Shown: positions 1-11,918 of the stretch, piece after piece
Layout: every line of letters begins with the position of its first letter
Numbering within the stretch: the stretch's first letter is position 1
Origin: Candidatus Avelusimicrobium ruminicola
GTDB lineage: Bacteria > Elusimicrobiota > Elusimicrobia > Elusimicrobiales > Elusimicrobiaceae
Direction of reading: 5' to 3'
Length of the DNA stretch: 11,918 bases
Assembly (NCBI GenBank): GCA_900319885.1
Contig: ONQH01000029.1
Location: 1 to 11,918, forward strand
Position numbers and translations under genes: made by a program
Notes under the pieces: generated by a model
What the model saw: only the letters and a program-made list of their open reading frames with translations
Told to the model about the DNA's origin: nothing
The model's database searches: none

Positions 1-358
1 TGGCCTCTTGCGGTAATTCCGCATCTACTTCTTCGTTACCTGATTTGCCTTCTCTATCGGGAACATCATCCGAAACAACTCCCGCTTGTGGGCATTGTTC
101 CCAATCCTCGCCTTTCCCTATCTTGGATACGCAAAAGTCCGCAAACTCTCTTTCATGTTCGCTAATTTCGCCGTATTTACCCCAAAATTCATGCAAGTCG
201 ATAGAGCCACTTTGCCATAATTCACAAAACCGAGAAGCCCTTTCATCGCTCTCCTTGTTACATGGAAACACTACCAAAGCAACATACTCTAACAGAGCAT
301 ATTCTGCTTGTTTGCGATTTTCTTGAAAATCTCGTTTTGTAGGTATGGCTAGATTCAT
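1..358 (-). CDS. Unknown acidic protein, C-terminus cut off by window edge
   Basis: An open frame of 119 codons starts at the ATG at 356-358 and runs leftward off position 1 without a stop, so the C-terminus is missing. The N-terminus begins MNLAIPTKRDFQEN. The rest is soluble, rich in Glu and Asp, with scattered Cys and Trp (for example an FCELWQSGS segment near residue 45 and an ADFCVSKIGKGEDWEQC stretch near residue 80) and an increasingly acidic, low-complexity end. I see no signal peptide, membrane segment or catalytic motif and do not recognise the family. It is transcribed divergently from the nuclease gene at 452. No clear Shine-Dalgarno precedes the ATG, and a good -10 hexamer lies only 9 bases upstream, so the message may be leaderless. 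Confidence that it is coding rests on the long open frame with sensible codon use starting next to a promoter. Confidence 0.6.
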   Translation of the reverse strand, partial: MNLAIPTKRDFQENRKQAEYALLEYVALVVFPCNKESDERASRFCELWQSGSIDLHEFWGKYGEISEHEREFADFCVSKIGKGEDWEQCPQAGVVSDDVPDREGKSGNEEVDAELPQEA

Positions 359-367
359 AATAATTTC

Positions 368-398
368 ATTGTATCTTATTTCCAATACTAATTGTCAA
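368..398 (-). promoter_or_regulatory. Putative sigma70-type promoter for the truncated minus-strand gene
   Basis: On the minus strand a perfect TTGACA (398-393) is followed after 19 bases by TACAAT (373-368). The spacer is 2 bases longer than ideal. A start site about 7 bases past the -10 would fall next to the ATG at 358, implying a leaderless or nearly leaderless transcript. Confidence 0.4.
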
Positions 399-451
399 AA
401 AATGCCAGATTAGCAATATGTTTAGGAATGATACAGATTTAAGGAGGCATT

Positions 452-892
452 ATGACTATAGGTAAAATATCACTTATGCTAACTTGCGTACTGTTATTAG
501 CCAGCTGTGCACATATAAGCGCAAGCCAGCAAAAAGATATGGCAAATTTTGACAACGCATCCTTGATATCTGTATATGACGGAGATACGTTTTACATAGA
601 TATTCCCTCTTGCAATATTGACGTTTTCTGCAAACATATTTCCGTTCGCGTACGAGGAGTAGATTGCCCTGAAATGAAAGGTGGTACCGCAGAAACGAAA
701 GCACGCGCCAAACAAGCCAAGGAGTTTAGTGAACGCTTTCTTAAAAGCGGCAAAATTCTACTGTACAATTGTGGACGAGATAAGTATTTCCGGCTACTTT
801 GTGATGTGGGAGTTAACGATAAAAGCTTAGGTGCAGAGTTAATTAAGTCCGGACATGCTGTTTCTTATGATGGCGGAACAAAAAATCCTTAA
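452..892 (+). CDS. Staphylococcal-nuclease-like (thermonuclease) lipoprotein
   Basis: A 146-residue Ca2+-dependent sugar-non-specific nuclease of the SNase fold, probably anchored to an envelope membrane. Residues 1-19 form a lipoprotein signal with a hydrophobic stretch and the lipobox LASC (lipidated Cys19). The SNase domain spans about 37-140. All active-site positions are kept: DGDT at 43-46 (D45 matches SNase Asp21), R66 (Arg35), D71 and E74 in VDCPE (Asp40, Glu43), and R114 in DKYFR (Arg87). The length fits a minimal one-domain SNase. Besides the lipidated Cys, the mature protein has five cysteines (54, 60, 72, 107, 117), which might form disulfides. A strong AAGGAGG site at 441-447 fixes the start. 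The role is likely degradation of extracytoplasmic nucleic acid, either for nutrition or as a barrier to incoming DNA; the sequence does not decide between them. It is a single-gene unit. Confidence 0.9.
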   Translation: MTIGKISLMLTCVLLLASCAHISASQQKDMANFDNASLISVYDGDTFYIDIPSCNIDVFCKHISVRVRGVDCPEMKGGTAETKARAKQAKEFSERFLKSGKILLYNCGRDKYFRLLCDVGVNDKSLGAELIKSGHAVSYDGGTKNP

Positions 893-1045
893 AATTTAAA
901 GTAAATTTATTATTTTCCCCTGCATTTACCCTGTTTTACAGGGAAAATTTCTCGCCGCTTTACTGCCGCTTTGGAAAGAAAAGAACTATCAATTTTTGCC
1001 TGTTTATTGCCTGTTTGATAAAAGAATATTCAGCATAGTGCTAGG

Positions 1046-1073
1046 AAAACTAAAAGCACCGTATTTTAGTTTT
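1046..1073. repeat. AT-rich 10-bp perfect inverted repeat
   Basis: AAAACTAAAA at 1046-1055 is perfectly complementary to TTTTAGTTTT at 1064-1073 with an 8-base loop. The stem has one G-C pair. It lies between the nuclease gene and the terminator at 1089; it could be a weak hairpin in the mRNA tail or a protein-binding site. Function unknown. Confidence 0.6.
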
Positions 1074-1088
1074 GATTTATTAGCATTT

Positions 1089-1125
1089 ATCCCCGTTAGG
1101 ATTAACTCCCGACGGGGATTTTTTT
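1089..1125 (+). terminator. Rho-independent terminator downstream of the nuclease gene
   Basis: The stem ATCCCCGT (1089-1096) pairs with ACGGGGAT (1112-1119) around a 15-base loop, followed by an unbroken run of seven T (1119-1125). It is about 200 bases past the nuclease stop codon and is the first strong terminator after it. Confidence 0.85.
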
Positions 1126-1233
1126 ATAAACAACCGATAGCATAGTATTTCTGGGTTCATTTTGGCTTTTACAAAAATTTATTGGATTTTATGCTGACAC
1201 CACGAGGTAGGAAGTCGTGCAAATGCGAATTAA

Positions 1234-1257
1234 AATATGTTACGATAAAAACATATT
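1234..1257. promoter_or_regulatory. Inverted repeat (candidate operator) upstream of the exported ankyrin gene
   Basis: AATATGTT (1234-1241) and AACATATT (1250-1257) form a perfect 8-bp inverted repeat with an 8-base spacer. It ends 6 bases before the AGGAG ribosome site. A -10-like TACGAT (1241-1246) lies inside it, so a bound protein would block the promoter; another possible promoter lies upstream (TTTACA at 1168, TATGCT at 1190, spacer 16). The repeat is unrelated to the GCGACA palindrome found further right. As RNA it could also fold near the translation start. Confidence 0.45.
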
Positions 1258-1275
1258 GTTTATAGGAGAAACAGT

Positions 1276-2328
1276 ATGCGTAAATTTACACAAATTATCA
1301 GTAGTATATTTATTGCTTTATTTGGATTTGCTTGTGCCCGTCAAGACGCATTATACAAAGCCATTGAAGCCGGAGATACACAACAAGTCGCTCAACTGAT
1401 TACCAACGGAGCAGATGTAAATAAACGGTACTCAAAACCTAGTCCAGGAAGCACGCCTTTAATGTGGGCTATTACGAAAGGGAACCTGGATATTGTGAAA
1501 CTACTATTGCAAGCCAAGGCAGATATTCACGCTCAAGATAAAGAGGGAATGACCCCGCTTATGGTGGCCTGTATTACGGAACGCCCGCAAATAGCAGATA
1601 TGTTAATAAAGGAGGGGGCCAACATCCATACAGCTAATGCAGGGGGAGCAACTGCACTGCTTTTAAGTGCTTATTATGGCAATTTAGAGTTGGTAAATTT
1701 GTTAGTACAGGCAGGGGCCGATGTAAATCGAGCAGATAACCAAGGAGCTACCCCCATTTTTTTGGCGGCAAATGCCGGAAATAATGCTTTGTTAAATTCG
1801 CTCATAAAGGCGGGAGCAAATGTAAATGTGATGACCTCTTCCGACCGCAAGGGAACACCTCTTATGGAAGCTGTTTTCCAAAATAAGTTAGAAACGGTCA
1901 AACTCCTTATCCAAGCGGGAGCGAAACTTGATTTGCAAGATAGTTTTGGATGGACAGCTTTATTCATTGCCAGTAGCCAAGGATATACAGAACTTGTTAA
2001 TGAGTTACTGCAAACCGGAGCAAATGTTAATCTTGTAAATGGCGGTGGGGATACCCCTCTTATGGTAGCTTCCAGTGAAGGACACTCGGAAACAGTTGCT
2101 ACGTTACTTACCCATGGAGCAGATGTAAACGCCCGTAATCATGACGGCTGGACTGCGTTAATGATTGCTAGCCAACAAGGGAATTTAGCTATTGTTCGTA
2201 CTTTATTACAAGCTAAAGCGGATGTAAATGCAAAACAAAAGGATGGGTTTGCTGCCATTAAATTTGCTACGGCTGCCGGACATACAGAAATCGTAAACTT
2301 TCTTAAATCTGCCGGAGCGAAAGAATAA
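1276..2328 (+). CDS. Exported ankyrin-repeat protein (about ten repeats)
   Basis: The 350-residue protein has a Sec-type signal peptide (MRK followed by a hydrophobic stretch to about residue 20, then ACA-R, a plausible signal peptidase I site). The Cys at 20 lacks a canonical lipobox (GFAC), so lipidation is unlikely. The rest, about 23-350, is roughly ten consecutive 33-residue ankyrin repeats with the usual TPLM start and GADVN end; repeat 5 carries a short insertion (VMTSSDRKG). There is no catalytic domain, so it is a pure protein-binding solenoid, probably in the periplasm or at the surface. Its partner is not visible here. AGGAG at 1264-1268, 7 bases before the ATG, supports the start. 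It is a single-gene unit bounded by terminators at 1089-1125 and 2367-2389. Confidence 0.9.
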   Translation: MRKFTQIISSIFIALFGFACARQDALYKAIEAGDTQQVAQLITNGADVNKRYSKPSPGSTPLMWAITKGNLDIVKLLLQAKADIHAQDKEGMTPLMVACITERPQIADMLIKEGANIHTANAGGATALLLSAYYGNLELVNLLVQAGADVNRADNQGATPIFLAANAGNNALLNSLIKAGANVNVMTSSDRKGTPLMEAVFQNKLETVKLLIQAGAKLDLQDSFGWTALFIASSQGYTELVNELLQTGANVNLVNGGGDTPLMVASSEGHSETVATLLTHGADVNARNHDGWTALMIASQQGNLAIVRTLLQAKADVNAKQKDGFAAIKFATAAGHTEIVNFLKSAGAKE

Positions 2329-2366
2329 GCATTTAGCCACCTGAACTACACTCACCGTAAAATTTG

Positions 2367-2389
2367 AACCCCCTTGACGGGGGTTTTTT
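2367..2389 (+). terminator. Rho-independent terminator after the exported ankyrin gene
   Basis: AACCCCC (2367-2373) pairs with GGGGGTT (2379-2385) around a 5-base loop, followed by a T tract (2384-2389). It lies 38 bases past the stop codon. Confidence 0.85.
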
Positions 2390-2417
2390 ATTTCAGTTTA
2401 TCTAATAGGGCTTAATC

Positions 2418-2438
2418 AAACGGAGGCGTCCGTTTTTT
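2418..2438. terminator. Second hairpin terminator at the convergent gene junction
   Basis: AAACGGA (2418-2424) pairs with TCCGTTT (2429-2435) around the loop GGCG, with six T at 2433-2438 in the plus direction. It backs up the previous terminator for the ankyrin gene. The minus-strand gene's stop codon (2437-2439) touches it; in that direction the following TTTGATT is only a weak U tract. Confidence 0.7.
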
Positions 2439-3714
2439 AAGATTTTTTAAGTTCTTCATAATGTCCCCAAATTTCACCTAAGCACTTGTTAAATACTGCC
2501 GGCTTAAAGTAGGCAAACGCGGATGGGTGGTACCCCGTGGAAACGAGCAAACAAGATTTTTGAGGATGGTCTTGATCATACCCCGTCAAAACGGCAAAAG
2601 GCACTGCTTTAGAGCCCATTTTAATTTGCAAGCGAGGCGGCAAATTGTTCAATTTTCGCAGTGAAATTTTTTCATTATCTAATACCTTATCCCGGTCCTG
2701 CAGGATGACATCAAATGGGGCATTTCCCCAAGTAATAATAATATCCGGTTTGCATTGTTTGACTATTTCCACAAAGGCTTGCATCGCGCGCTTGTTATCC
2801 CCGGGTGCGTTATTTTGTGTATTGGACATGCTTTGTTGGTAAAAATTGCTAAATACCAGTTGATTCCAAATTTCCGAGGTACTATTTTCATCAAGAGATT
2901 TACGAAATTTTCTGTGACTTGGATATTCCTTTTCCCCGTTTATATAACCGTATAGTTCTCGGCAGGTCATATAGCGGCAAATAGGCATTTGAAAGCAATG
3001 GGAACAGGGGTGTTCATTTTTGCAAAGTGAACACTCATACAATTCGTGCATATGGCACTGAGGGTGTTGCGCAGCTTTATCTTCAAAATCGCTTGTTTGA
3101 CTCAAAATCTCTTGAACTGTTTTCGCGTCCTCTTCCAAATCTTCCGGCCGTAAATCTTTTTGGGAATCATTATCCATGCGGTCCAATGAATGAACGCGCA
3201 AGATTTTTTCAATAGCGCCTAATTCGTTATGGTTTTCCAGCCAAGAAAGCCCTTTTTCTTTTAGATGTTTGCTGGCTTGGTTGTATTCGTCGGGAAAATT
3301 TTTTTTATAAAATTCCAGCCATTTATAAACAATATATATTTTATCCCAGTATTTAATATCTTTCTGGAAAGAGGATTCCCATATCTCCGTATTAAAATAT
3401 GCTGAAAATTCTTTATCTTGTTCTATTTTTTCTTTAATTTCCTTACGTACTTGATAATAGGCTACTATTTTATCTTTTATCTTGGTGGGATCGGTTTGTA
3501 ATGGGGCAAGTATTTTCAACGAATTGAGGTAATAATCCTGCTCGTGGTTTTTGTTTTTACAATGGTTTTCATCTAGACAATAATGTTCTTTACCCAGGGC
3601 CATCAATTTCAACGGTTTGAGGTCACCAGGGAGGTTTTCCCCTGACGGGATGATTCCCTCTTCATATTTTTCCCCTTCCCAAGGCAGAAAAAACACGTTA
3701 TCACTATACTCCAT
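2437..3714 (-). CDS. Uracil-DNA-glycosylase-fold protein with cysteine-rich insert
   Basis: I chose the ATG at 3714 (425 residues). It is preceded by AGGGA five bases upstream, whereas the in-frame TTG at 3738 has no ribosome site. Features resemble the UDG-like superfamily members whose N-terminus reads ILGESHYC: ALGKEHYC at 39-46 with a second Cys at 52, then after a long middle region a VFSNFYQ strand (287-293), PDIIITWGN (323-331) and TGYHPSAF (393-400), where HPS matches the UDG motif at the base-binding loop. Inserted before these is a dense cysteine cluster (C220, C228, C231, C237, C240, C246, C251, including two CxxC pairs) that looks metal-binding, either zinc or Fe-S. The middle (about 55-210) is helical and charged with no recognised domain. 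A role in handling damaged or modified DNA bases is an inference from fold; glycosylase activity is not shown. It is a lone gene with its own -10 (TATAAT at 3759-3754). Confidence 0.6.
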   Translation of the reverse strand: MEYSDNVFFLPWEGEKYEEGIIPSGENLPGDLKPLKLMALGKEHYCLDENHCKNKNHEQDYYLNSLKILAPLQTDPTKIKDKIVAYYQVRKEIKEKIEQDKEFSAYFNTEIWESSFQKDIKYWDKIYIVYKWLEFYKKNFPDEYNQASKHLKEKGLSWLENHNELGAIEKILRVHSLDRMDNDSQKDLRPEDLEEDAKTVQEILSQTSDFEDKAAQHPQCHMHELYECSLCKNEHPCSHCFQMPICRYMTCRELYGYINGEKEYPSHRKFRKSLDENSTSEIWNQLVFSNFYQQSMSNTQNNAPGDNKRAMQAFVEIVKQCKPDIIITWGNAPFDVILQDRDKVLDNEKISLRKLNNLPPRLQIKMGSKAVPFAVLTGYDQDHPQKSCLLVSTGYHPSAFAYFKPAVFNKCLGEIWGHYEELKKS

Positions 3715-3753
3715 AATATTCCCTATCTCTTTAATCAAATACTACTGACGTCC

Positions 3754-3759
3754 ATTATA
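3754..3759 (-). promoter_or_regulatory. -10 element for the UDG-like gene
   Basis: A perfect TATAAT on the minus strand (3759-3754), preceded by TAG, lies 39 bases upstream of the chosen ATG. No good -35 hexamer is seen at 16-18 bases, and there is no GCGACA palindrome, so this gene appears to be outside the regulon described for the right part of the window. Confidence 0.5.
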
Positions 3760-3855
3760 CTAAATATTTTATTCTACCCTATGCCTATTGAGATATTGGG
3801 CGTAATTAATTTTGAACACATATTGAAATAATAAAACAATGTTTGCGGGCATGGT

Positions 3856-3885
3856 AAAAGCACACGCTATAAAACGTGTGCTTTT
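3856..3885 (-). terminator. Hairpin terminator after the ferritin-like gene
   Basis: A perfect 11-bp stem, AAAAGCACACG (3856-3866) with CGTGTGCTTTT (3875-3885), has an 8-base loop. It lies 27 bases past the ferritin-like stop codon. A and T runs on both sides make it able to work in either direction; no plus-strand gene precedes it. Confidence 0.85.
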
Positions 3886-3912
3886 TAACAAATGTTCTAT
3901 CCCTTCCGGTTT

Positions 3913-4425
3913 TTACTTATTACATTTTTTCTCTTGGGTATTGCAAGAACAATGCAAATCTTCCAAGTCTTGCTCGTGCTCTAATTCGTCTTCTAAAATC
4001 TCGCGCACCAAGTGCTCGGTTACCAAGTCTTTGCCGGCTACTTTTTCTAAGATTTTTTGATAGACTTCAATGGCGCATCTTTCTCCCTGAATATTTTGCT
4101 TTAACAGGTGTAAAGCTTCCGGATTTTCCGGTGCCAAGTAACCGCAAGCACTATCTTTGAGCCACAAATCCGGCGAGATAGCCGGCGTTCCGCCCAGCTC
4201 CAAAATGCGCTTGGCTAATTTTTCGGCGTGTTCCAACTCTTCGCCGGCGTGTTCTTCCAACTCTTGCGCAATCAGGTGGAACATTTTTCCTTCGGCCACT
4301 TTGGCCCCAATCCAATATTGGTAATAGGCCAGCCACTCATCACAATAAGCGCTATTGAGGTCTTTGAGTAGCGCGTTTAAATCAATGCCCGCGCGGGTAA
4401 CTAATTCTTGTGCTTTTAATCCCAT
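3913..4425 (-). CDS. Dps-like ferritin (DpsL/thioferritin type)
   Basis: I start the protein at the ATG at 4425 (170 residues, MGLKAQELV). AGGAGG lies 5 bases upstream and would be inside the coding region if the upstream TTG at 4443 were used. It is a four-helix ferritin-like protein with a complete di-iron ligand set: E30, E63-x2-H66, E115 and E147-x2-H150. Two cysteines, C94 and C117, are spaced C-x22-C with CAIE following. I associate this pair with the DPS-like proteins (thioferritins) of Sulfolobus and Bacteroides fragilis, which use peroxide to oxidise iron and protect DNA. C28 and a C-terminal CSC (159-161) plus C168 are additional. A bacterioferritin or rubrerythrin label is possible, but there is no rubredoxin CxxC domain. 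The gene has its own terminator; upstream are a conventional promoter candidate and the reverse side of palindrome A. Confidence 0.8.
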   Translation of the reverse strand: MGLKAQELVTRAGIDLNALLKDLNSAYCDEWLAYYQYWIGAKVAEGKMFHLIAQELEEHAGEELEHAEKLAKRILELGGTPAISPDLWLKDSACGYLAPENPEALHLLKQNIQGERCAIEVYQKILEKVAGKDLVTEHLVREILEDELEHEQDLEDLHCSCNTQEKKCNK

Positions 4426-4457
4426 AATTTCCTCCTTTTTCAATGACTTGGAAGGAT

Positions 4458-4487
4458 ACTTTAGCGGTTTTAGTTACCTTTTGGCAA
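4458..4487 (-). promoter_or_regulatory. Putative proximal promoter of the ferritin-like gene
   Basis: On the minus strand TTGCCA (4487-4482) is separated by 18 bases from TAAAGT (4463-4458), 33 bases upstream of the ATG. It is a moderate sigma70 match and competes with, or supplements, the more distant -10 beside palindrome A. Confidence 0.35.
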
Positions 4488-4570
4488 TGCAAAAAATTAA
4501 TTAGTTTCTTAGCATGCCAGATGATGTGAGAGCTATTTGCCCGAATAGGTGCCTTAAGGGTATTTTTTTC

Positions 4571-4620
4571 AGAATATAATTCTTGCGCGACAGGTTGTTG
4601 TCGCGGGGGTTTTGTATTCT
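4571..4620. promoter_or_regulatory. Palindromic operator/promoter A, two-sided (ankyrin and ferritin-like genes)
   Basis: The arms CGCGACA (4586-4592) and TGTCGCG (4599-4605) flank a 6-base spacer. Nine bases past the right arm is TATTCT (4615-4620), placed to transcribe the ankyrin gene at 4649. Nine bases past the left arm, on the minus strand, is also TATTCT (4576-4571), pointing to the ferritin-like gene at 4425 with a leader of about 140 bases. No recognisable -35 hexamer is present; the palindrome occupies that place. Copies B and C have the same layout. Confidence 0.75.
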
Positions 4621-4648
4621 ATATGTAAAAGATATACCGGAGTAAATT

Positions 4649-5362
4649 ATGCCCAAAATGACACTTGGCGAGGCCGCCTATCAAAATTCTATGCGTATGG
4701 TGCGCCAACTTATTGAAGCTGGCGCGGATCCCAATGTGTCCGAGGATGGACTTGTGCCGTTGCGGGAAGCGTGTTTTAATGAAAATATCCCTATGATCAA
4801 GTATTTGCTTGAACAGGGTGCTAGTCCTAATGGGCGCGACCCGGATGATGATGAAACCGTGTTGGAATCGTATATCCACCACTGTTACAAGCGTGTTAAT
4901 ACGGCAGTATTGCGCCGGATATTGCGTGCTGGAGCAAACCCATACTTATGCAAAGCCAAGCAATTGCGTCCCATGTTTCATTGGGCTATTTTGAACAATG
5001 TAAAACGACTGGTTTCTATCTTATTGGAGTATGGGGCAGATGTAAACCAACGCGGGAAAGTGCATGACGGTGAAACGCCGCTGATGACCGCTGCTTATTT
5101 TGCCGATATTTCCATGATGGAAATGCTACTTAAGCACGGGGCGGACGTTAATGCACGAGATGGGTACGGATGTAATGCCTTGTTCTATGTTGTTATGGGC
5201 GATTGTCCATGGCAAGAAATACTGCCGCGGTTTAAGTTGCTCTTCAAGTATAGCATTGATTTGCACGCACAGGAAAAACACGGTAAAAACATTTTACAAT
5301 ATGGTTTCCGTTTGGATAATGCCACAAAACGTTGGCTAAACGAGCAAGGAATCAAGGAATAA
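4649..5362 (+). CDS. Cytoplasmic ankyrin-repeat protein
   Basis: The 237-residue protein is built of about seven ankyrin repeats, several diverged: clear GADPN, GASPN, GANPY, GADVN, GADVN endings at about 33-residue steps, with longer loops in repeats 2, 3 and 6. It lacks a signal peptide and any enzymatic domain, so it should act inside the cell by binding another protein. GGAG at 4639-4642, 6 bases before the ATG, supports the start. Transcription would begin from palindrome A (TATTCT at 4615), giving a leader of about 22 bases. It converges on the DnaB-like/AAA operon with only 15 bases between stop codons and shares its operator type, so a partner among the AAA, DnaB-like, HNH or deiminase proteins is a sensible guess. 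It is not a copy of the exported ankyrin protein at 1276. No terminator is visible after it. Confidence 0.88.
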   Translation: MPKMTLGEAAYQNSMRMVRQLIEAGADPNVSEDGLVPLREACFNENIPMIKYLLEQGASPNGRDPDDDETVLESYIHHCYKRVNTAVLRRILRAGANPYLCKAKQLRPMFHWAILNNVKRLVSILLEYGADVNQRGKVHDGETPLMTAAYFADISMMEMLLKHGADVNARDGYGCNALFYVVMGDCPWQEILPRFKLLFKYSIDLHAQEKHGKNILQYGFRLDNATKRWLNEQGIKE

Positions 5363-5377
5363 AATCCGATCTTTTAG

Positions 5378-6154
5378 CTAAATAGGCTCTATCTTCCCCG
5401 TATCACTATCGTAATCAAAACAACAACTTCCCGGGCTCAAAAAATGCGTGTTCCGTATGTTTAGATGTAATTCCTTGTGCGGAGAATGTAGATTAAAATC
5501 TTGAACTTCTTGTAATTGGACAAATCCTATATAAGAACTAAATTCTTCCGGCAAAATAATTCTATTGCGTGCATAGATGCTATTCCAGCAGGCGGGGACT
5601 CCCTTAGGTAACTTAACGAAGAAAAACAACACTTTGTTGCGTTCTTTTACTTGCGGCCATAATACACATGGCTCAAAATTTTGCCAATCTTCCAGAGAAA
5701 CCGTTTTGATACACACGGATGTTTTATTTTCTTCCGGCACATCTTCATCCTCATGCCATGTAATCAGATAGTTAGCTATACATTCCAACGATTTTTGGAG
5801 CGATTGAAACTCTTGATAAGATAAATACCCTGTTTGCAAATGCATGCGATCTGCCCCCGATTGCAGACATAATAAATCACAAAAATCCTTATCAAACTCT
5901 TTTCCGCCTTCCAAAATATGAACTGGATCCCCACCTTTTGCTATTTGCCATAATAGATTTAGACGCCACATCCACAGGGCATTATCCTCTGCCCCACCGA
6001 AAAAAGTATAGCACTCCCCCGGCGCAAATTCCCCGCATATCTGCTCAAGATTTGGATAGGGTATTTTAATGCTGTCTTCAAAAGTTTCCTTTTTATCTTC
6101 TACCCTATTTAAAATAGGTTTAAAACGTTCTACCATTTCTTTCATCGTTATCAT
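5378..6154 (-). CDS. DnaB/RecA-fold protein lacking the P-loop, copy 2
   Basis: The 258-residue protein follows the C-terminal helicase domain of DnaB from end to end. IPYPNLEQICGEFAPGECYTFF (31-52) corresponds to the segment leading into Walker A of DnaB (LDxLTGGFQPGDLIIIA). Residues 53-60 (GGAEDNAL) stand where the GKT loop should be, so Walker A is lost. PVHILEGGKEFD (77-88) matches the PVLFFSLEM strand. VKERNKVLFFFVKLPKGV (169-186) matches the AKELNVPVIALSQL strand. The final SCCFDYDSDTGKIEPI matches the DnaB end VKLFFDPETGRFE. No Walker B Asp is evident. It is thus probably not an ATPase by itself but a structural partner. It follows its paralog by 3 bases, with GGAG six bases before the ATG; the last gene of the AAA operon. 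The family assignment is from remembered alignments and needs a profile or structure search. Confidence 0.6.
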   Translation of the reverse strand: MITMKEMVERFKPILNRVEDKKETFEDSIKIPYPNLEQICGEFAPGECYTFFGGAEDNALWMWRLNLLWQIAKGGDPVHILEGGKEFDKDFCDLLCLQSGADRMHLQTGYLSYQEFQSLQKSLECIANYLITWHEDEDVPEENKTSVCIKTVSLEDWQNFEPCVLWPQVKERNKVLFFFVKLPKGVPACWNSIYARNRIILPEEFSSYIGFVQLQEVQDFNLHSPHKELHLNIRNTHFLSPGSCCFDYDSDTGKIEPI

Positions 6155-6157
6155 AAA

Positions 6158-6919
6158 TTACTCCTTTTCTGCCGGCATGATTTCATACGTAAACGTATTT
6201 TTATCAAACAAAATAAGCTCCTTGCAGAAAGATTTCGCATTTTTAAGCATTAAGATTAACTGATCCTTTCCCTTTATTCCTTTTGTGTTTTTTTCTATCA
6301 TCACAAGCCCTAAATAGGATGATAAATACTCAGGTCGGACAACTCGATTAGGGTGATATAAACTTCCAAACGTCACGGGCACATCTTTCGGCATCTGCAC
6401 AAATAGCAACAGTGCCACATTTTGTTCACGCGCTTGAGTCCACAATGCTTCAGCATTTTCCTGCCACTTTGCTAATGTCATATCCTTTACGCACACAACG
6501 GGGTTTGAATTAACTGCCACGCAATTACCTGTTTCCCATGTTAGTGGGTAGAGGGCAAGTTCTTTAAGTGCCACTCGCAAATCATCATAATCCGCTCTAT
6601 TAAGATCATGGGGAAACATCTTACTTTGCAGACAAAGCAACTCTACCGTGTCGGCATCAAAAGACTTTCCGCCCTCTAGCACATGTACAGGCACTCCATT
6701 TTTTATCAGCTGCCATAGCAAATTTCTGCGCCATAACCGCAAAGCTATTTCATCTTTGCTACCAAAGAAACTATAACATTCCCCCGGCATAAAACTTCCC
6801 CAGACCGATGCCAAATTATCATAGGGAATGCGCAACCCAGTAACACAAGGTTTTTCCTCGTGCTGAAGATGGTCCAAAATGGTGGCAAACCGCTTAGCTT
6901 GTTCTTTCATTGTTATCAT
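6158..6919 (-). CDS. DnaB/RecA-fold protein lacking the P-loop, copy 1
   Basis: The 253-residue paralog of the next gene shares the MITM-KE start, a motif IPYxNL at 31-36, PGECYSFFG (45-53), RNLLWQ (65-70), PVHVLEGGK-FD (77-88) and ELLCLQS (93-99). Like its twin it aligns with the DnaB C-terminal RecA fold, but the Walker A place (53-60) reads GSKDEIAL with no GKT/S. The later strand is VALLLFVQMPKDV, again like the DnaB LSQL strand. The two proteins differ most in their middle (about 130-145) and C-terminal parts, which suggests an old duplication and specialisation, perhaps as a heterodimer. It starts 13 bases after the AAA stop codon, with AGGAG overlapping that gap, so it is co-transcribed with the ATPase. 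Catalytic ATP hydrolysis is unlikely; an adaptor or scaffold for the AAA ATPase or DNA is an inference. Confidence 0.6.
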   Translation of the reverse strand: MITMKEQAKRFATILDHLQHEEKPCVTGLRIPYDNLASVWGSFMPGECYSFFGSKDEIALRLWRRNLLWQLIKNGVPVHVLEGGKSFDADTVELLCLQSKMFPHDLNRADYDDLRVALKELALYPLTWETGNCVAVNSNPVVCVKDMTLAKWQENAEALWTQAREQNVALLLFVQMPKDVPVTFGSLYHPNRVVRPEYLSSYLGLVMIEKNTKGIKGKDQLILMLKNAKSFCKELILFDKNTFTYEIMPAEKE

Positions 6920-6932
6920 AATTCTTTCTCCT

Positions 6933-8936
6933 CTAATTTACATGAAAACCGATCCCGTTGCCATGGGTATTGTGTTTAAGCTTCTGCTCAGTTTCCAGCA
7001 TTTCTTTTAGCGCATAAAAATCATGCGCGTGGCCCAATATTTCTGCCTTATTTTTTACAAGGGCAAAGTCTCCGGGTGTTAGTTTATCTAGCCCTATCAC
7101 ATCTTTTTTGTCAATCATTACATGGAAGAAGAACATAAAGGCACATACCACTTGCTGAGGAGTCAAAAAATCATACTTAATTTTAAAACTAAACCGCCGC
7201 AAACTGGCCGGGTCTAGCGTGTCCATGAGGTTGGTGGTGCAAATAAACGGATACGGGTGCGATTCCATCCAGGTCAACATTTCGTTTACACCGGATATTT
7301 CCCACGAGTGAGAAGCCGTGGCACGGTCCCGCAAGAAACTATCGGCCTCATCAAAAATTAAGAGTGATTTGTTCTCTTTGGCCTGCGCAAAGGCCTCGGC
7401 GATATTTTGTTCTGTCCCTCCAACCCATTTGGACAGCAAATCTGATGCCCTACGGTGTAGCACATCTAAGCCCAATTCTTGCGCTAAATACCGTGCATAG
7501 GCCGATTTGCCCGTACCGCTGGCCCCGTATAAGCAAAGCGAGAAATTAAGCCGTCCTAAACGTTTAATCTGCTGAGTAAGCAGGTCTAAATTCATATCCG
7601 CATTGATAAGGGCAGTTTCAAATTCGGCATTCTCCGTATTTTCCTCCGGCTTTTTGTAGCCACCGTTAAGGGCTTGCGTCATAAAAGACAAGTGCTCTTT
7701 AACGGTATTTAAATCTCCTTTAGCCATATGGGCCGCATGCGTGGCGCCTGCAATCATAGATGGCGGCACTTCGTACTTTTTGGCAAGTTTTAATGTATCT
7801 TCCTTGCCACACGCAATTTTGTTCTCTGTTAGATATTTATTCCAAATTTTTTGGCGCACCTCCACGGGCGGCTTATTAAAACACACCGCCAACGTAAAAC
7901 GACGGATAAAAGCCGGGTCCATGCGATGGATTTTATTAGTTGTCCAAATGACTGGAACTTCATTATTTTCCAAAAGGTTATTGATTTCCATTTTACTGGC
8001 ACGTGTTTCCGGACTGGAAAACATATCCTCTCCCTCATCAAACAATAAGCAGGCATCCTTAATATTTTTGAGAGAAAATTGCTTGCGGTAAAATTGCTGT
8101 AAGCGAAAGTTTTTCTCGTCATCTCCATTATTACAAATGCCCACTGTGTATAGATTCAACTTGGCAGATTTGGCTAACATCTTGGCAAAACTGGTTTTAC
8201 CCGTGCCAGGAATACCATAAAGCAAAATATTAAACCCTTTCATGCGCTTGGCACACTTCATAAGGCGCAAAGCGAAATCACTAGCTTCCACATAAGGAAA
8301 GTCCTTGCTAGTTAATTCTTCCCTATTAGATAAAGGAGCCCCGACTAGTGCCTTGGAACGTGCGGTATTGCTTTTGTACGCAGTAGAGATGAATTCTTGT
8401 GCCCAACTTGTTAATTGGAAATCAGAATTAAAACGTCGTTCTTTTATAATGCCTAGGCGTTTTAAAGGCGCATTATCATTTAAAAAGGAATACCCCGTTC
8501 CTACAGGGCAATCGGCTGCTGCTGTTAAGGTATCCTCTCGTTCATAAAGGTCGTGGTTAAATTCTTGTAAACATTTTTTAAAGAATTTATTTGTATATAC
8601 CGCACCCAAAAAGCGGACAATCTTTTCTTCCTGTTCTTTTAACTGTAGGACTTTCGAAAGATAAGAAATATTGCGTTGCGCTTCAGGAATGGGTAGGGTT
8701 GAATAAATCGTTCCATGTTCCGCCAAAGCACTTTCTATCTTTTCACAAAACTCTTGCGTTTCTTTTTTAGTATACCCTCTATCATCTTCTCTGCGAGGAA
8801 GAGAAAAAAGCAGGTCTCCACCATTCATATTGTTAATATCCACAAGGCTTCTTTCATAACGCTCAAGGGTTTTTAAGTAAGGAAGCAATTTGTTTAAGTA
8901 GTAGAATGCCTCATATTGTTCGCGCGTGTATTTCAT
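6933..8936 (-). CDS. Tandem AAA+ ATPase (two complete AAA modules)
   Basis: The 667-residue protein has an N-terminal helical/winged-helix-like region (1-215) followed by two AAA modules. Module 1: Walker A GIPGTGKT (241-248), Walker B LLFDE (297-301), sensor-1 TTN (332-334) and the arginine-finger-type RRF (345-347). Module 2: Walker A GASGTGKS (471-478), a pore loop SKWVGGTEQN (502-511) like that of classical AAA unfoldases, Walker B LLIFDE (525-530), TTN (567-569) and RRF (580-582). Both modules look active. It resembles Ycf46/SpoVK/Vps4-type AAA proteins, so substrate threading or remodelling is expected. AAGGAG (8951-8946) precedes the ATG by 9 bases. It is first in an operon with the two P-loop-less DnaB-like proteins, driven from palindrome B. 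No protease or nuclease domain is fused; clients are probably supplied by neighbours. Confidence 0.88.
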   Translation of the reverse strand: MKYTREQYEAFYYLNKLLPYLKTLERYERSLVDINNMNGGDLLFSLPRREDDRGYTKKETQEFCEKIESALAEHGTIYSTLPIPEAQRNISYLSKVLQLKEQEEKIVRFLGAVYTNKFFKKCLQEFNHDLYEREDTLTAAADCPVGTGYSFLNDNAPLKRLGIIKERRFNSDFQLTSWAQEFISTAYKSNTARSKALVGAPLSNREELTSKDFPYVEASDFALRLMKCAKRMKGFNILLYGIPGTGKTSFAKMLAKSAKLNLYTVGICNNGDDEKNFRLQQFYRKQFSLKNIKDACLLFDEGEDMFSSPETRASKMEINNLLENNEVPVIWTTNKIHRMDPAFIRRFTLAVCFNKPPVEVRQKIWNKYLTENKIACGKEDTLKLAKKYEVPPSMIAGATHAAHMAKGDLNTVKEHLSFMTQALNGGYKKPEENTENAEFETALINADMNLDLLTQQIKRLGRLNFSLCLYGASGTGKSAYARYLAQELGLDVLHRRASDLLSKWVGGTEQNIAEAFAQAKENKSLLIFDEADSFLRDRATASHSWEISGVNEMLTWMESHPYPFICTTNLMDTLDPASLRRFSFKIKYDFLTPQQVVCAFMFFFHVMIDKKDVIGLDKLTPGDFALVKNKAEILGHAHDFYALKEMLETEQKLKHNTHGNGIGFHVN

Positions 8937-8968
8937 GGTTTTGTTCTCCTTTCCGTTAGATTATGTAT

Positions 8969-9003
8969 AGTGTAGAAAAGGTGTGCGACAGCATAGTGTC
9001 GCA
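8969..9003 (-). promoter_or_regulatory. Palindromic operator/promoter B for the AAA operon
   Basis: Perfect arms TGCGACA (8984-8990) and TGTCGCA (8997-9003) flank the spacer GCATAG. On the minus strand, 9 bases beyond the palindrome, lies TACACT (8974-8969), the proposed -10 for the AAA gene at 8936. On the other side the equivalent position (9013-9018) reads TTTTAA, not a -10, and there the HNH gene only ends. Readthrough from the HNH operon, 84 bases upstream on the same strand, remains possible, as no terminator separates them. Confidence 0.75.
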
Positions 9004-9020
9004 GCGTGGGAATTTTAATA

Positions 9021-9818
9021 TTATTTTTGGTTATTTAATTTCTTTTCAACTTTCTCCCAAATAGATTTAAAATCTGTTAAGTATGAAATATCAATTCCTT
9101 CCTTCGCTAATACATTTTGCCAAAATCGGTTAATGCCTTGTGCAATTGGCTTAAAATCCTCGGGGCGAATAAAATCACTCTTGGCATTATTACATACATG
9201 ACAAATCCAAATACAATTCCCTTCGCTATACAAATTCTTCCCTTGGGCAGAATGTTTGCGCTCCAACTCCAGTGTTTTTCCTCTATTTCGCTTATTACCA
9301 CCATTTGTTGCCACTTGCTCCAGGTATTCCCGACATTTCTTCTGCGTAACACCGCAATATTCACACGTCGTTTGATCTTTAGGTATATTGTTGAGATACC
9401 ATTTGATAAATTTTTCTATTCCTAATTCACATGCCTTCTTAAAATCAGACAAGCTATTCAAATCATAGCCGGAATCATTATCTTTGGGCAATTCCTTCGG
9501 CAGTTTTTTAAATATTTCTTTCTGCTCTGCTTCCGTTTTATGCTTAAATGTAATCCATTTAATCGTATTATTAAGTTCACAGGGCCAACCACCAAACCCC
9601 GCACAACGGGGCAAGGTACATAAACTTTCAAGGTGCTTGATATATGGTTCTATTTGTTCATAGAGGCCAAAAGAATCTTCGTATTTTTTCTTAAGTTTAT
9701 CGGCTTTTGTCGTACCGAGAATTTTGTTTTGTTTTTTATCTACCAATTCTTTTTCATACAGAGAAATAGCATCTTTTAACATATTTATAGCATCTTGATT
9801 TTCCGATAATTTACTCAT
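9021..9818 (-). CDS. HNH endonuclease-like protein with two CxxC zinc knuckles
   Basis: The 265-residue protein has a charged helical N-terminal half (1-145) and a C-terminal HNH domain. CEYC (152-155) and CHVC (206-209) form a four-cysteine zinc site. Between and after them lie LELERKHS (183-190, the first HNH His at 189), NLYSEGNCIW (195-204, Asn 201) and CNNAKSDF (209-216), which together match the beta-beta-alpha metal fold of HNH nucleases. DNA cleavage is expected, but the target specificity is unknown; the N-terminal half may recognise the target or a partner. GAGGGA precedes the ATG by 5 bases, and the ATG overlaps the deiminase stop by 8 bases, so the two are translationally coupled. 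It is the third gene of the winged-helix/deiminase/HNH operon. A homing-type nuclease is less likely, given the operon position. Confidence 0.8.
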   Translation of the reverse strand: MSKLSENQDAINMLKDAISLYEKELVDKKQNKILGTTKADKLKKKYEDSFGLYEQIEPYIKHLESLCTLPRCAGFGGWPCELNNTIKWITFKHKTEAEQKEIFKKLPKELPKDNDSGYDLNSLSDFKKACELGIEKFIKWYLNNIPKDQTTCEYCGVTQKKCREYLEQVATNGGNKRNRGKTLELERKHSAQGKNLYSEGNCIWICHVCNNAKSDFIRPEDFKPIAQGINRFWQNVLAKEGIDISYLTDFKSIWEKVEKKLNNQK

Positions 9819-10671
9819 AATATTCCCTCGTTAAACAATGTACGGCACCGCCATACTGCGATATTTGCTCACAATCCACGCACACAAGCGGCTTGTGGGT
9901 GTGCTTTTTCATTATATTAACAATTTCGTCATCTTCGGGCAAATTAAATTGTGGTACAAAAACAGCGCGTGAAGTTTCCAAAAAATTCACGTAAAGGCCT
10001 TTGGCACTCAGCCAGTTATCTTCATCTATCGGGCATAACAAAGGCAACGTCTTAAAATGATGACAACTAGCCAACAAATTGCTAGATTTATCATCAAGCA
10101 ATGTTTCTAAGGCAATATTTTCGTCAAAAATATTTGATGTTCCCTCCATTAGATTATCCCCTAAAAACTGAATATATCCGTCCATATGGCCGATTTTATC
10201 GCCTTTTTGTTGTGGTAGCCAGAATATTTCTTGCACACCCAGTGCGCGTTTTAATTCTTGATTCACGTGTTCTTTTTGTGCTGGGTTTGATTTATGGAAA
10301 ATTGTTTGTTTTTCCAAGCAAAACGCTTGATTTTTGTCAGGGGACAGAACAATATTACCTCCATCTATACGCACGTCACATGGTCTAGCATGAGGGAAAG
10401 CACCTCGTACCTGCTCGCGGATAGCCGCCGTAAATTTAGGTGTGTAATTGGCATAGCGCGGGTCAAAAAAGAGTTGGTATAACTCCCGGGTTTGCACATT
10501 TTGCACAGGCAGAAAATCACGCACCCATATATCGGGCAACTCCAATGCACGAACTTCGTGATATTTTCTCAACTGCGCCACAAAATGCTCGTAAAACTTG
10601 GCATGGCCGGGGTATATCTGCTCCGTGTACCAAGTGGGTTTAGCCACATAAATTACCTCATTGGGGGTCAT
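9811..10671 (-). CDS. Agmatine/peptidyl-arginine deiminase family enzyme
   Basis: I choose the ATG at 10671 (286 residues), which has GGTGG upstream and overlaps the previous gene by 14 bases; an ATG at 10713 would overlap by 56. Family motifs appear in order: LPDIWVRDFLP (45-55, the DxWxRD site), DGGN (103-106, usually EGGN), GHMD (161-164, catalytic His) and GGAVHC (274-279, catalytic Cys279 near the C-terminus, usually GGNIHC). These are the residues needed for guanidine hydrolysis of agmatine or arginine side chains. It is shorter than typical agmatine deiminases (about 340-370), and the motifs are diverged, so the substrate may differ, for example a protein arginine. No signal peptide is seen, so it is cytoplasmic. 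Its position between a winged-helix-like protein and an HNH nuclease argues against simple polyamine metabolism. Confidence 0.8.
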   Translation of the reverse strand: MTPNEVIYVAKPTWYTEQIYPGHAKFYEHFVAQLRKYHEVRALELPDIWVRDFLPVQNVQTRELYQLFFDPRYANYTPKFTAAIREQVRGAFPHARPCDVRIDGGNIVLSPDKNQAFCLEKQTIFHKSNPAQKEHVNQELKRALGVQEIFWLPQQKGDKIGHMDGYIQFLGDNLMEGTSNIFDENIALETLLDDKSSNLLASCHHFKTLPLLCPIDEDNWLSAKGLYVNFLETSRAVFVPQFNLPEDDEIVNIMKKHTHKPLVCVDCEQISQYGGAVHCLTREYYE

Positions 10672-11098
10672 GTATCCACCGCCAAAATACTTCTTTCTTA
10701 TGCTCGGGCGCAATAATCACGCGGTCGTTGGGCCAGTAATACTCCATATCAATTACGGCCACCGCATCTATTACGCTACGCGGCATGAGGTATTCACTCC
10801 CCATTACCCGTACCAGTAAATCCAAATCAACAAGCTCTTGCCACGCTTCCTCATGTTTCAAATATAGCGTTGGCACATTGAGATCCTTTTCCAGCTGTGA
10901 AATGAACAACGGTTGGGGTTTTAACTGGTACACATAGTAATAACTAAACACCAGTTTGGCTACATTGGACAGGGGCGGCAAAAAACTGTCCAGTTCCGCA
11001 AGCACTTTTTTTACCTCCGGTTGTTCCAGCGCCGCAAGACCGTCTTGTTCCACGCCGTCCAAAATAGCGTCGAAATACTTAAACAGACTAAACGTCAT
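10658..11098 (-). CDS. Small winged-helix-like protein of unknown function
   Basis: I choose the ATG at 11098 (146 residues), preceded by GGAG at 6 bases. The upstream ATG at 11125 has no ribosome site and coincides with the transcription start predicted from the -10 at 11137. The core at about 42-110 (helix with VAKLVFSYYYVYQ, then FISQLEKDLNVPTLYL, a helix, and a hydrophobic strand LLVRVMGSEYLM) has the pattern of a winged helix, similar in style to wHTH modules joined to AAA ATPases. It has no enzymatic motif. It could bind DNA or act as an adaptor for the AAA protein. It is first in the operon, its stop overlapping the deiminase start by 14 bases, and is driven from palindrome C divergently from the WYL regulator. 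I do not recognise the family. Confidence 0.75.
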   Translation of the reverse strand: MTFSLFKYFDAILDGVEQDGLAALEQPEVKKVLAELDSFLPPLSNVAKLVFSYYYVYQLKPQPLFISQLEKDLNVPTLYLKHEEAWQELVDLDLLVRVMGSEYLMPRSVIDAVAVIDMEYYWPNDRVIIAPEHKKEVFWRWIHDPQ

Positions 11099-11131
11099 AA
11101 TGAACTCCATTTCCTTATTCGTCATAGAACT

Positions 11132-11181
11132 AGGATAACAAAATCATGCGACAACACCTTGTCGCCCCTATGTGCTATACT
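11132..11181. promoter_or_regulatory. Palindromic operator/promoter C, two-sided (WYL gene and divergent operon)
   Basis: TGCGACA (11147-11153), spacer ACACCT and TGTCGCC (11160-11166). Nine bases to the right is TATACT (11176-11181), preceded by TG as in an extended -10, for the WYL gene at 11199. Nine bases to the left on the minus strand is TATCCT (11137-11132), for the winged-helix/deiminase/HNH operon at 11098. Predicted starts give leaders of about 11 and 27 bases. The site can control both genes at once. Confidence 0.8.
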
Positions 11182-11198
11182 TTTTGTAAGAGGTAACT

Positions 11199-11918
11199 AT
11201 GCAAAAAGAAATGCAAAACAAACTAACACGCCTTTTGTATGAATTGAACGCCCTGGATAAGGGGGCTATCCGCCTAAAAGATATGGCAGAAGAAGTGGGG
11301 GTTGCCGTACGCACCCTCCAACGCGACATGAACGAAATTGAGGATGCCAACTTCCCGCTGTGGAACCCCGAGCCGGGAGTGTATGCGTTTATAGAAGGGT
11401 TTTCCTTGGAGCGCATGCAGTTATCCAGCGCGGAGGCGTCTATCTTGGTGGTGATGAGTGATATTGCCTCATCCTTGGGTGGCAATTTTGGGCAGTCGTT
11501 TGAAGCGCTTAAATTACGTCTGACCGAAGGCACACAAAACAATCCATTTTTTATTAAAATGACGCCAGGTGAGCAATACAAGCAAACACCCATTACACGC
11601 ACGTTGGAAGATTCTATCCGTGCACGCGAGTGGGTGACCGTATGCTACAAAGGCGGCAAACAAGCATGCTATGCGGTACGGCCTTTGAAACTGTTGTGGA
11701 GTGAGGGTTTTTGGTATTTGCTTTCGCTGACGGATGATGACAAACTGTTAAAATTCCGCCTGGAAAAGATTTCCTCCGCCAAAGAAATGGGCAAGTTTTT
11801 TAAGTACGACAAAAATATAGACAAAACTCTCAAAGAAAGCACGAACGTATGGTTTGAAAAAGAACGCCCTTTGGCGGTGCAGTTGGAAGTATCGGCCGAG
11901 TGCGCGCATTTCTTTAAG
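11199..11918 (+). CDS. HTH-WYL transcriptional regulator, C-terminus cut off
   Basis: The frame is open for 240 codons to the window edge. Residues 5-65 form a DeoR/HTH_11-type winged helix with recognition segment RTLQRDMNEIE (38-48). A linker follows, then a WYL domain at about 135-200 with RPLKLLWSEGFWYLLSL (161-177), including the literal Trp-Tyr-Leu at 172-174, and FRLEKI (186-191). The WCX-type C-terminal segment begins near 223 and is incomplete. WYL domains sense ligands such as nucleic acid fragments or nucleotides and control DNA-damage responses (PafBC) and phage-defence operons (CapW, BrxR). AAGAGG (11188-11193) lies 5 bases before the ATG. It is transcribed divergently from the winged-helix/deiminase/HNH operon, with palindrome C between them, so autoregulation and control of the other palindrome-bearing units is the natural inference. 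Activator or repressor cannot be decided. Confidence 0.88.
   Translation, partial: MQKEMQNKLTRLLYELNALDKGAIRLKDMAEEVGVAVRTLQRDMNEIEDANFPLWNPEPGVYAFIEGFSLERMQLSSAEASILVVMSDIASSLGGNFGQSFEALKLRLTEGTQNNPFFIKMTPGEQYKQTPITRTLEDSIRAREWVTVCYKGGKQACYAVRPLKLLWSEGFWYLLSLTDDDKLLKFRLEKISSAKEMGKFFKYDKNIDKTLKESTNVWFEKERPLAVQLEVSAECAHFFK

Follow-up and report, generated by a model that had tools for sequence, protein, structure and literature searches.

A palindromic box over the -35 position as a probable WYL-activator promoter element on an accessory island of Candidatus Avelusimicrobium ruminicola

Regulators of the WYL family are often encoded close to bacterial defence genes, but worked-out regulons are few. 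As far as the excerpts of the sources cited here go, DriD of Caulobacter crescentus is a homodimeric activator with a helix-turn-helix (HTH)-WYL-WCX architecture and CGAC/GTCG half-sites, which at several targets, including a bidirectional promoter region, are centred on a degenerate -35 at one fixed distance from the -10 (PMC12340889, a preprint). At mycobacterial RecA-NDp promoters, the PafBC system has a TTGTC half-site 12 bases from TAnnnT (PMC5656591), and the activator is inserted between sigma region 4 and the DNA (PMC11804915). SiwR of Mycobacterium smegmatis, a homodimeric activator described as controlling adjacent genes, uses a 19-bp imperfect palindrome between -35 and -10 (PMC10693628), and BrxR and CapW are WYL repressors of defence islands, with inverted repeats near their own gene (PMC9122601). 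Here we describe a palindromic box, GCGACA-N6-TGTCGC, which recurs in an 11,918-nucleotide (nt) stretch of Candidatus Avelusimicrobium ruminicola (the window, positions 1-11918 of the 19,634-base contig C102). This box is probably the combined operator and promoter element of a DriD/PafBC-type WYL activator encoded at 11199, which would drive the genes of an island as a stress or defence programme.

A scan of the window recovered the exact palindrome three times, and all five TAnnCT hexamers that the initial annotation had placed exactly 10 bases from the 18-mer were found at their coordinates:

4571..4576, minus strand: -10 TATTCT on the left side of box 1, facing a ferritin-like gene about 145 bp away; functional use uncertain
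4587..4604, no strand: candidate WYL box 1, GCGACA-N6-TGTCGC, with a -10 on both sides
4615..4620, plus strand: -10 TATTCT facing the ankyrin gene, exactly 10 bases from box 1
8969..8974, minus strand: -10 TACACT facing the AAA operon, 10 bases from box 2
8985..9002, no strand: candidate WYL box 2, an exact palindrome
11132..11137, minus strand: -10 TATCCT of the 10658-11125 operon, 10 bases from box 3
11148..11165, no strand: candidate WYL box 3, located between the regulator and the deiminase operon and flanked by a -10 on each side
11176..11181, plus strand: -10 TATACT of the WYL gene, with TGC directly before it, 10 bases from box 3
11199..11918, plus strand: WYL regulator, HTH-WYL-WCX in homologues, continuing past the window

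On the sixth side, right of box 2 (8985), TTTTAA stands instead of TAnnCT. A chance origin, which the initial annotation had considered very unlikely, was rejected with simulated windows, shuffles and reversed-pattern controls in the own and the family genomes. Three hundred windows simulated with the same base-to-base transition frequencies contained 2 exact palindromes in total and at most 1 per window, and with up to three mismatches the real window has 7 matches compared with a shuffle mean of 2.47, a number reached in 4 of 200 shuffles. In the own genome (1,201,259 bases in 176 contigs, 83% complete) the many random or intragenic copies that would have told against a dedicated signal were not seen: at no more than one mismatch there are only 6 sites (C102 4587, 8985, 11148, 14336 and 17457, and C104:2872) vs. 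0 for the reversed pattern, and every site has a TAnnnT 10 bases away on one side or both. The three one-mismatch copies (14336, 17457 and C104:2872) have TATnnT at 10 bases on one side only (TATCTT twice and TATCCT once). The C104 box is located upstream of a second tandem-AAA gene, with an open reading frame (ORF) for a membrane protein of 61 amino acids (aa) in between, and a seventh box with a 7-base spacer, at contig position 17553, has TATCCT at 10 bases and precedes a 419 aa gene.

The comparison set comprised 90 genomes of the family, including 66 of the genus. They were searched with the directed pattern CGACA-N6-TGTCG-N11-TAnnnT, with the reversed pattern as the control; genus-wide counts of one-mismatch palindromes without the -10 were discarded as evidence because reversed-pattern controls were equal or higher in many genomes, and only the motif together with the -10 was used. 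The box with TAnnnT gave 119 directed matches in 34 of the 90 genomes, compared with 1 match of the control, and within the genus it is present in 29 of 66 genomes. To avoid circularity with the box search, loci of the AAA gene behind box 2 were chosen by protein match alone. This gene is present in 30/90 genomes (33 matches at E <= 1e-40); its named relatives come from Elusimicrobiales and Elusimicrobium metagenome-assembled genomes, including those from sheep rumen, sheep colon and reindeer, and Candidatus Proelusimicrobium and Avelusimicrobium are among the sources named for homologues. These relatives mark the host as an uncultured member of the gut Elusimicrobiota. Among 30 loci fetched, 3 lacked the 5' end, and the box was found in 26 of the remaining 27 (25 at no more than one mismatch, 1 at two), always with TAnnnT at one identical distance; the sole exception is L155 of genome G060, which has no box. 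TAnnnT occurs at a single offset in 28 of 29 boxes with at most one mismatch, and at offsets 6-10 or 12 in none.

The positions conserved among 28 AAA promoters are those of the core and of the TA..CT in the -10 (CGACA-N6-TGTCG-N11-TAtaCT); the box and the spacing stay constant while the AAA proteins diverge to 47% identity and the bases in between drift. A -35 is absent from these promoters, in all of which the best match to TTGACA at spacers of 15-19 reaches 3/6 or less, whereas matches of at least 4/6 appear in 25% of background draws and in 0/28 box promoters. In the 114 exact boxes of the directed search, a set selected with TAnnnT required, T is found at -15 in 98, G at -14 in 56 and both together as TG in 51; 71 have C as the fifth -10 base. 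A Shine-Dalgarno sequence with a start codon follows 30-59 nt past the core in 72 of the 114, vs. about 6% of control positions, and 23 have no such start within 115 nt.

The presence of the box follows a clade of WYL genes to which the regulator at 11199 belongs. The HTH-WYL-WCX architecture expected of a DriD-like homodimeric activator is found via its close homologues (e.g. P0121, 98% identical to the query), which have precomputed Pfam matches to WYL and to PF25583 (WCX); the HTH_11 match of the window protein is below the cut-off. The assembly has 40 N at 11919-11958 inside the gene (in coordinates of locus L007, which covers C102 beyond the window too), but the gene is probably intact, because the halves flanking the gap match the orthologue in G065 at 99% and 98% identity. 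According to Foldseek and a profile search, its nearest solved relative is DriD; a PDB search with the single sequence gave chance-level matches only. In the putatively basic ligand groove of the WYL domain K185, R187 and K190 are invariant in 47 sequences, but Tyr158 is found where DriD and PafC have Arg. We examined 30 WYL loci for a box at no more than one mismatch within 200 bp upstream and found it in 17 of 18 at 55% identity or above, compared with 0 of 12 at 48% or below (5 of the 12 without a resolved start codon). In 10 of the 17 the TAnnnT of the best box faces the WYL gene, 34-160 nt before it, and in the other 7 it does not. Box plus -10 is present in 19/19 genomes with such a WYL gene (mean 4.6 matches; G037 was counted from a 97-residue fragment, 85% identical) vs. 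15/71 without it (mean 0.44). In G019 and G030 both the WYL gene and boxes are present without an AAA match.

It had been proposed from the window alone that one regulator controls all these units, on the grounds that the palindrome occupies the -35 position. This step alone is no proof, but a single regulator is the best reading, as supported by the tracking of the WYL clade, the box before the WYL gene and the rigid -10 distance (28/29); a dedicated regulon of non-household genes is likewise favoured, with boxes in relatives extending beyond the island. The architecture points to an activator. A sister palindrome, CGACAAACGTTTGTCGG (in one copy AAACATTT), was observed in G023, G025, G043, G063 and G076, in all five with a WYL paralogue of 41-44% identity at most 3.4 kb away, and the two possibly form a second WYL regulon. 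The contig itself carries another WYL-like ORF, truncated (L007:18928-19617, plus strand), with a WYL-family HTH region and a C5-cytosine methylase fragment (PF00145, residues 141-191), which is either chimeric or was joined in the assembly.

A repressor of the BrxR/CapW type, which would sit on the box, block the polymerase and silence a defence island until released by a ligand, is an unlikely alternative, as no -35 was found that would make a bare promoter, and occlusion does not need a rigid -10 distance. Moreover, the BrxR repeats are described, in the excerpted text, downstream of the -10 and not over the -35 (PMC9122601); by Foldseek E-value BrxR and CapW rank below DriD and PafB, and they are outside the six profile matches at E <= 0.01, which alone proves nothing. 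Still less probable is another host factor as the true reader, be it LexA, the HTH_11-TPR protein at contig position 14382 or a box-reading alternative sigma factor, with the WYL gene a mere target. LexA and HTH-TPR proteins do occur in these genomes, and a box with a -10 could in principle be a sigma-specific promoter, but box presence follows the WYL clade, and the HTH-TPR family is near 4 of the 32 AAA islands surveyed (some on cut contigs, neighbours counted within 10 kb), compared with 21 for WYL. The sister palindrome near its own WYL paralogue also argues against such a factor. LexA was rejected as the reader because the boxes do not follow it, LexA being nearly universal (64 of 66 genus genomes) and boxes with a -10 being found in 29.

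Very improbable, finally, is the view that the box is a shared ancestral sequence carried by a recently spread mobile element and not a constrained signal. The patchy AAA gene (30/90 genomes), the serine recombinase beside the island in some genomes and its 90% identity between G065 and G083, which are of different genera, would fit it; it is largely refuted because boxes also lead unrelated genes, and the fixed box and spacing before AAA proteins as little as 47% identical, with drifting bases in between, speak against it as well.

The remaining genes of the island under the putative WYL activator are the following:

4649..5362, plus strand: ankyrin-repeat protein, 237 aa, starting 46 nt past the box core; its match to PADLOC PDC-M72A may be repeat-driven
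5378..6154, minus strand: 258 aa protein, 39% identical to its 253 aa DnaB-like paralogue
6158..6919, minus strand: 253 aa protein with a DnaB C-terminal-domain fold; Walker A not seen in the alignment
6933..8936, minus strand: tandem AAA+ ATPase of 667 aa, encoded first in the box 2 operon; PADLOC IetA match limited to the AAA domain
9021..9818, minus strand: 265 aa protein without a convincing Pfam family; judged by eye to be HNH-nuclease-like from its two CxxC knuckles
9811..10713, minus strand: Porphyromonas-type peptidyl-arginine/agmatine deiminase-family protein
10658..11125, minus strand: 155 aa protein, no family assigned; start more likely at 11098, after a Shine-Dalgarno-like stretch read by eye

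The 253 and 258 aa paralogues resemble the DnaB C-domain with a best E of 5.7e-12, neither showing Walker A, and in G083 a 171 aa ORF beside a DnaB-like paralogue scores Pfam DnaB_C (1.3e-11). Residues 53-300 of the deiminase-family protein, including the C-terminal GxxHCxT, align with 2cmu, named a putative peptidyl-arginine deiminase, and the protein also matches the agmatine deiminase 3hvm. Besides WYL, the neighbours of the 32 islands include the deiminase-family protein (20), a DUF2779 protein with a weak Cas4 match (15) and the 155 aa protein (11). The genes left of the island at 2-4443 (an ORF beginning MEIRYNE, a thermonuclease-like ORF and the ferritin-like gene) look like genes to the right of it in G065 (L212), as judged by eye from the first residues, and therefore gene order has been rearranged around the island. 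The window also encodes a 433 aa protein (2437-3738, minus strand), whose C-terminal end is uracil-DNA-glycosylase-like by eye and which has no convincing Pfam family.

Several boxes are followed by very small genes. In 9 loci the box is followed after 50-59 nt by the start of a 36-37 aa zinc ribbon, and in L007, L078, L085 and L087 the DUF2779 gene comes next. The own copy, 37 aa and unannotated, is at L007:17293-17406 (minus strand) behind box 17457, and has relatives in 8 further loci. When equally long copies are compared pairwise, the differences number 131, 118 and 284 at codon positions 1, 2 and 3. A membrane protein of 58-63 aa starts 48-51 nt after the box in L008, L079, L125 and L086; in L081 and L114 its start is more distant. 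Behind box 14336 three tandem hydrophobic peptides of 28, 21 and 25 aa are encoded (L007:14018-14293, minus strand), each preceded by a Shine-Dalgarno-like stretch; counterparts are found behind the L087 box and 24 aa versions behind boxes in L085 and L098. A Pfam scan gave no convincing family for these micro-peptides, whose size is reminiscent of TisB-type peptides.

The island is an accessory one and probably mobile. In G065 and G038 the box stands 35 nt before a 221 aa ORF, followed by DUF2924 and a serine recombinase (scanned against Pfam in the G065 copy); the G038 contig ends within the recombinase, the 142 residues of which are 94% identical to the G065 copy. The G083 recombinase is 90% identical to that of G065 and is the fifth gene past the AAA gene, with no break in the run of genes that begins at the AAA box. 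A recombinase of 36% identity is found in the island region of G054, where it is not clearly box-led. The boxes of relatives are not confined to the AAA island. Unlinked targets include a complete type I restriction-modification (R-M) operon (G054, L093), a C5-methylase/restriction/helicase operon (G024, L108), GmrSD (G042, L115), and a PDDEXK_4 defence candidate and AbiEii (G054, L090); near one-mismatch boxes are AbiEi (G024, L109) and PIF1 (G010, L080, within an island).

No attachment (att) site or empty integration site was found in these comparisons, and mobility is therefore unproven: the C-terminal 302 residues encoded by the gene to the left of the recombinase in G065 were unmatched in the other genomes of the 66 at E <= 1e-40, and the 300 bp beside the recombinase have only one AT-rich 12-mer in common with the rest of L087 and L212. 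Defence enrichment was assessed on 24 non-WYL first genes behind exact boxes with no AAA gene within 8 kb, of which 17 were scanned, against 20 genes drawn at random from the same loci. At PADLOC E <= 1e-15, a threshold picked after the matches were seen, 5/17 vs. 2/20 controls matched (Fisher 0.21, not significant), and at E <= 1e-5 6/17 vs. 5/20 (0.72). No complete known PADLOC anti-phage system was found, the island genes of the window matching only WYL, AAA-type and ankyrin-type entries and one weak Cas3c. The case for the regulon is therefore firm, but that for a purpose in defence is not, because there is no firm excess of defence genes behind the boxes.

We propose that a WYL homodimer would bind the two GTCG half-sites flanking the would-be -35 position, stand in for the -35 and help the sigma-70-type RNA polymerase to start at a weak, TAnnCT-like -10, in many cases TG-extended, at a distance of 10 bases, with the symmetry of the box allowing it to fire in both directions. 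Such a switch would act on a scattered, partly mobile set of genes for DNA handling and possibly defence, and would resemble that of DNA-damage activators in other bacteria, a class that has received little study. The activator, which a nucleic-acid (single-stranded DNA-like) signal would trigger, would raise its own gene and drive the AAA/DnaB-like operon, the 155 aa-deiminase-HNH operon and the ankyrin gene, as well as, beyond the window, the zinc-ribbon/DUF2779/HTH-TPR run and the tandem 21-28 aa membrane peptides. In relatives the regulon would add the serine recombinase (in three) and some unlinked R-M and Abi genes. Carried by an accessory, probably mobile island, the regulon would serve as an inducible programme for stress or defence.

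More speculatively, this could be a transmissible second damage response, in which an integrative island, with its own WYL activator sensing single-stranded DNA, would control its own recombinase and micro-peptides, the box having been taken over by immunity operons of the chromosome (type I R-M, type II R-M, GmrSD and AbiE). If this tentative idea were true, a single mobile regulator would jointly induce excision, immunity and possibly an arm for suicide or dormancy. The promoter grammar CGACA-N6-TGTCG-N11-TAnnnT can be read from genomes in a little-studied gut phylum, so its targets can be listed from sequence alone. In titles and abstract openings among the matches listed from the open-licence PMC literature, this regulon is untreated.

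Compared with the described systems (again within the excerpts cited), the locus shares with SiwR a palindromic site of a putative WYL activator, but its boxes are scattered over many operons, in contrast to the adjacent genes controlled by SiwR (PMC10693628). As in BrxR and CapW, a WYL regulator is located beside nuclease and AAA genes, with inverted repeats by its own gene (PMC9122601), but here the box is over the -35 at a fixed distance from the -10, with many targets, and the Foldseek E-values are weaker than for DriD. Boxes 1 and 3 of the window, read rightward as TTGTCGC-N10-TAnnCT, show the PafBC spacing of TTGTC 12 bases from TAnnnT; PafBC, however, is a heterodimer on a non-palindromic motif, whereas the present motif is palindromic, has -10s to its left and right and goes with a single WYL gene, the second WYL-like ORF of the contig being the truncated chimera. 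The likeness is greatest to DriD, with an HTH-WYL-WCX protein, a CGAC...GTCG operator over a poor -35 (here 3/6 at best), a single -10 distance (28/29 at one offset) and several promoters, with a bidirectional region among them (PMC12340889), and by analogy the regulator may also sense single-stranded DNA. It differs in that the GTCG half-sites are N8 apart, vs. N7 in DriD (PMC12340889), in apparent autoregulation, and in the -10s that flank two of the three window boxes to the left and right. Its targets form an accessory island of AAA, deiminase-family and DnaB-like proteins, micro-peptides and a recombinase in another phylum. The case would extend the DriD/PafBC mode of activation and indicates unannotated micro-proteins as part of the response.

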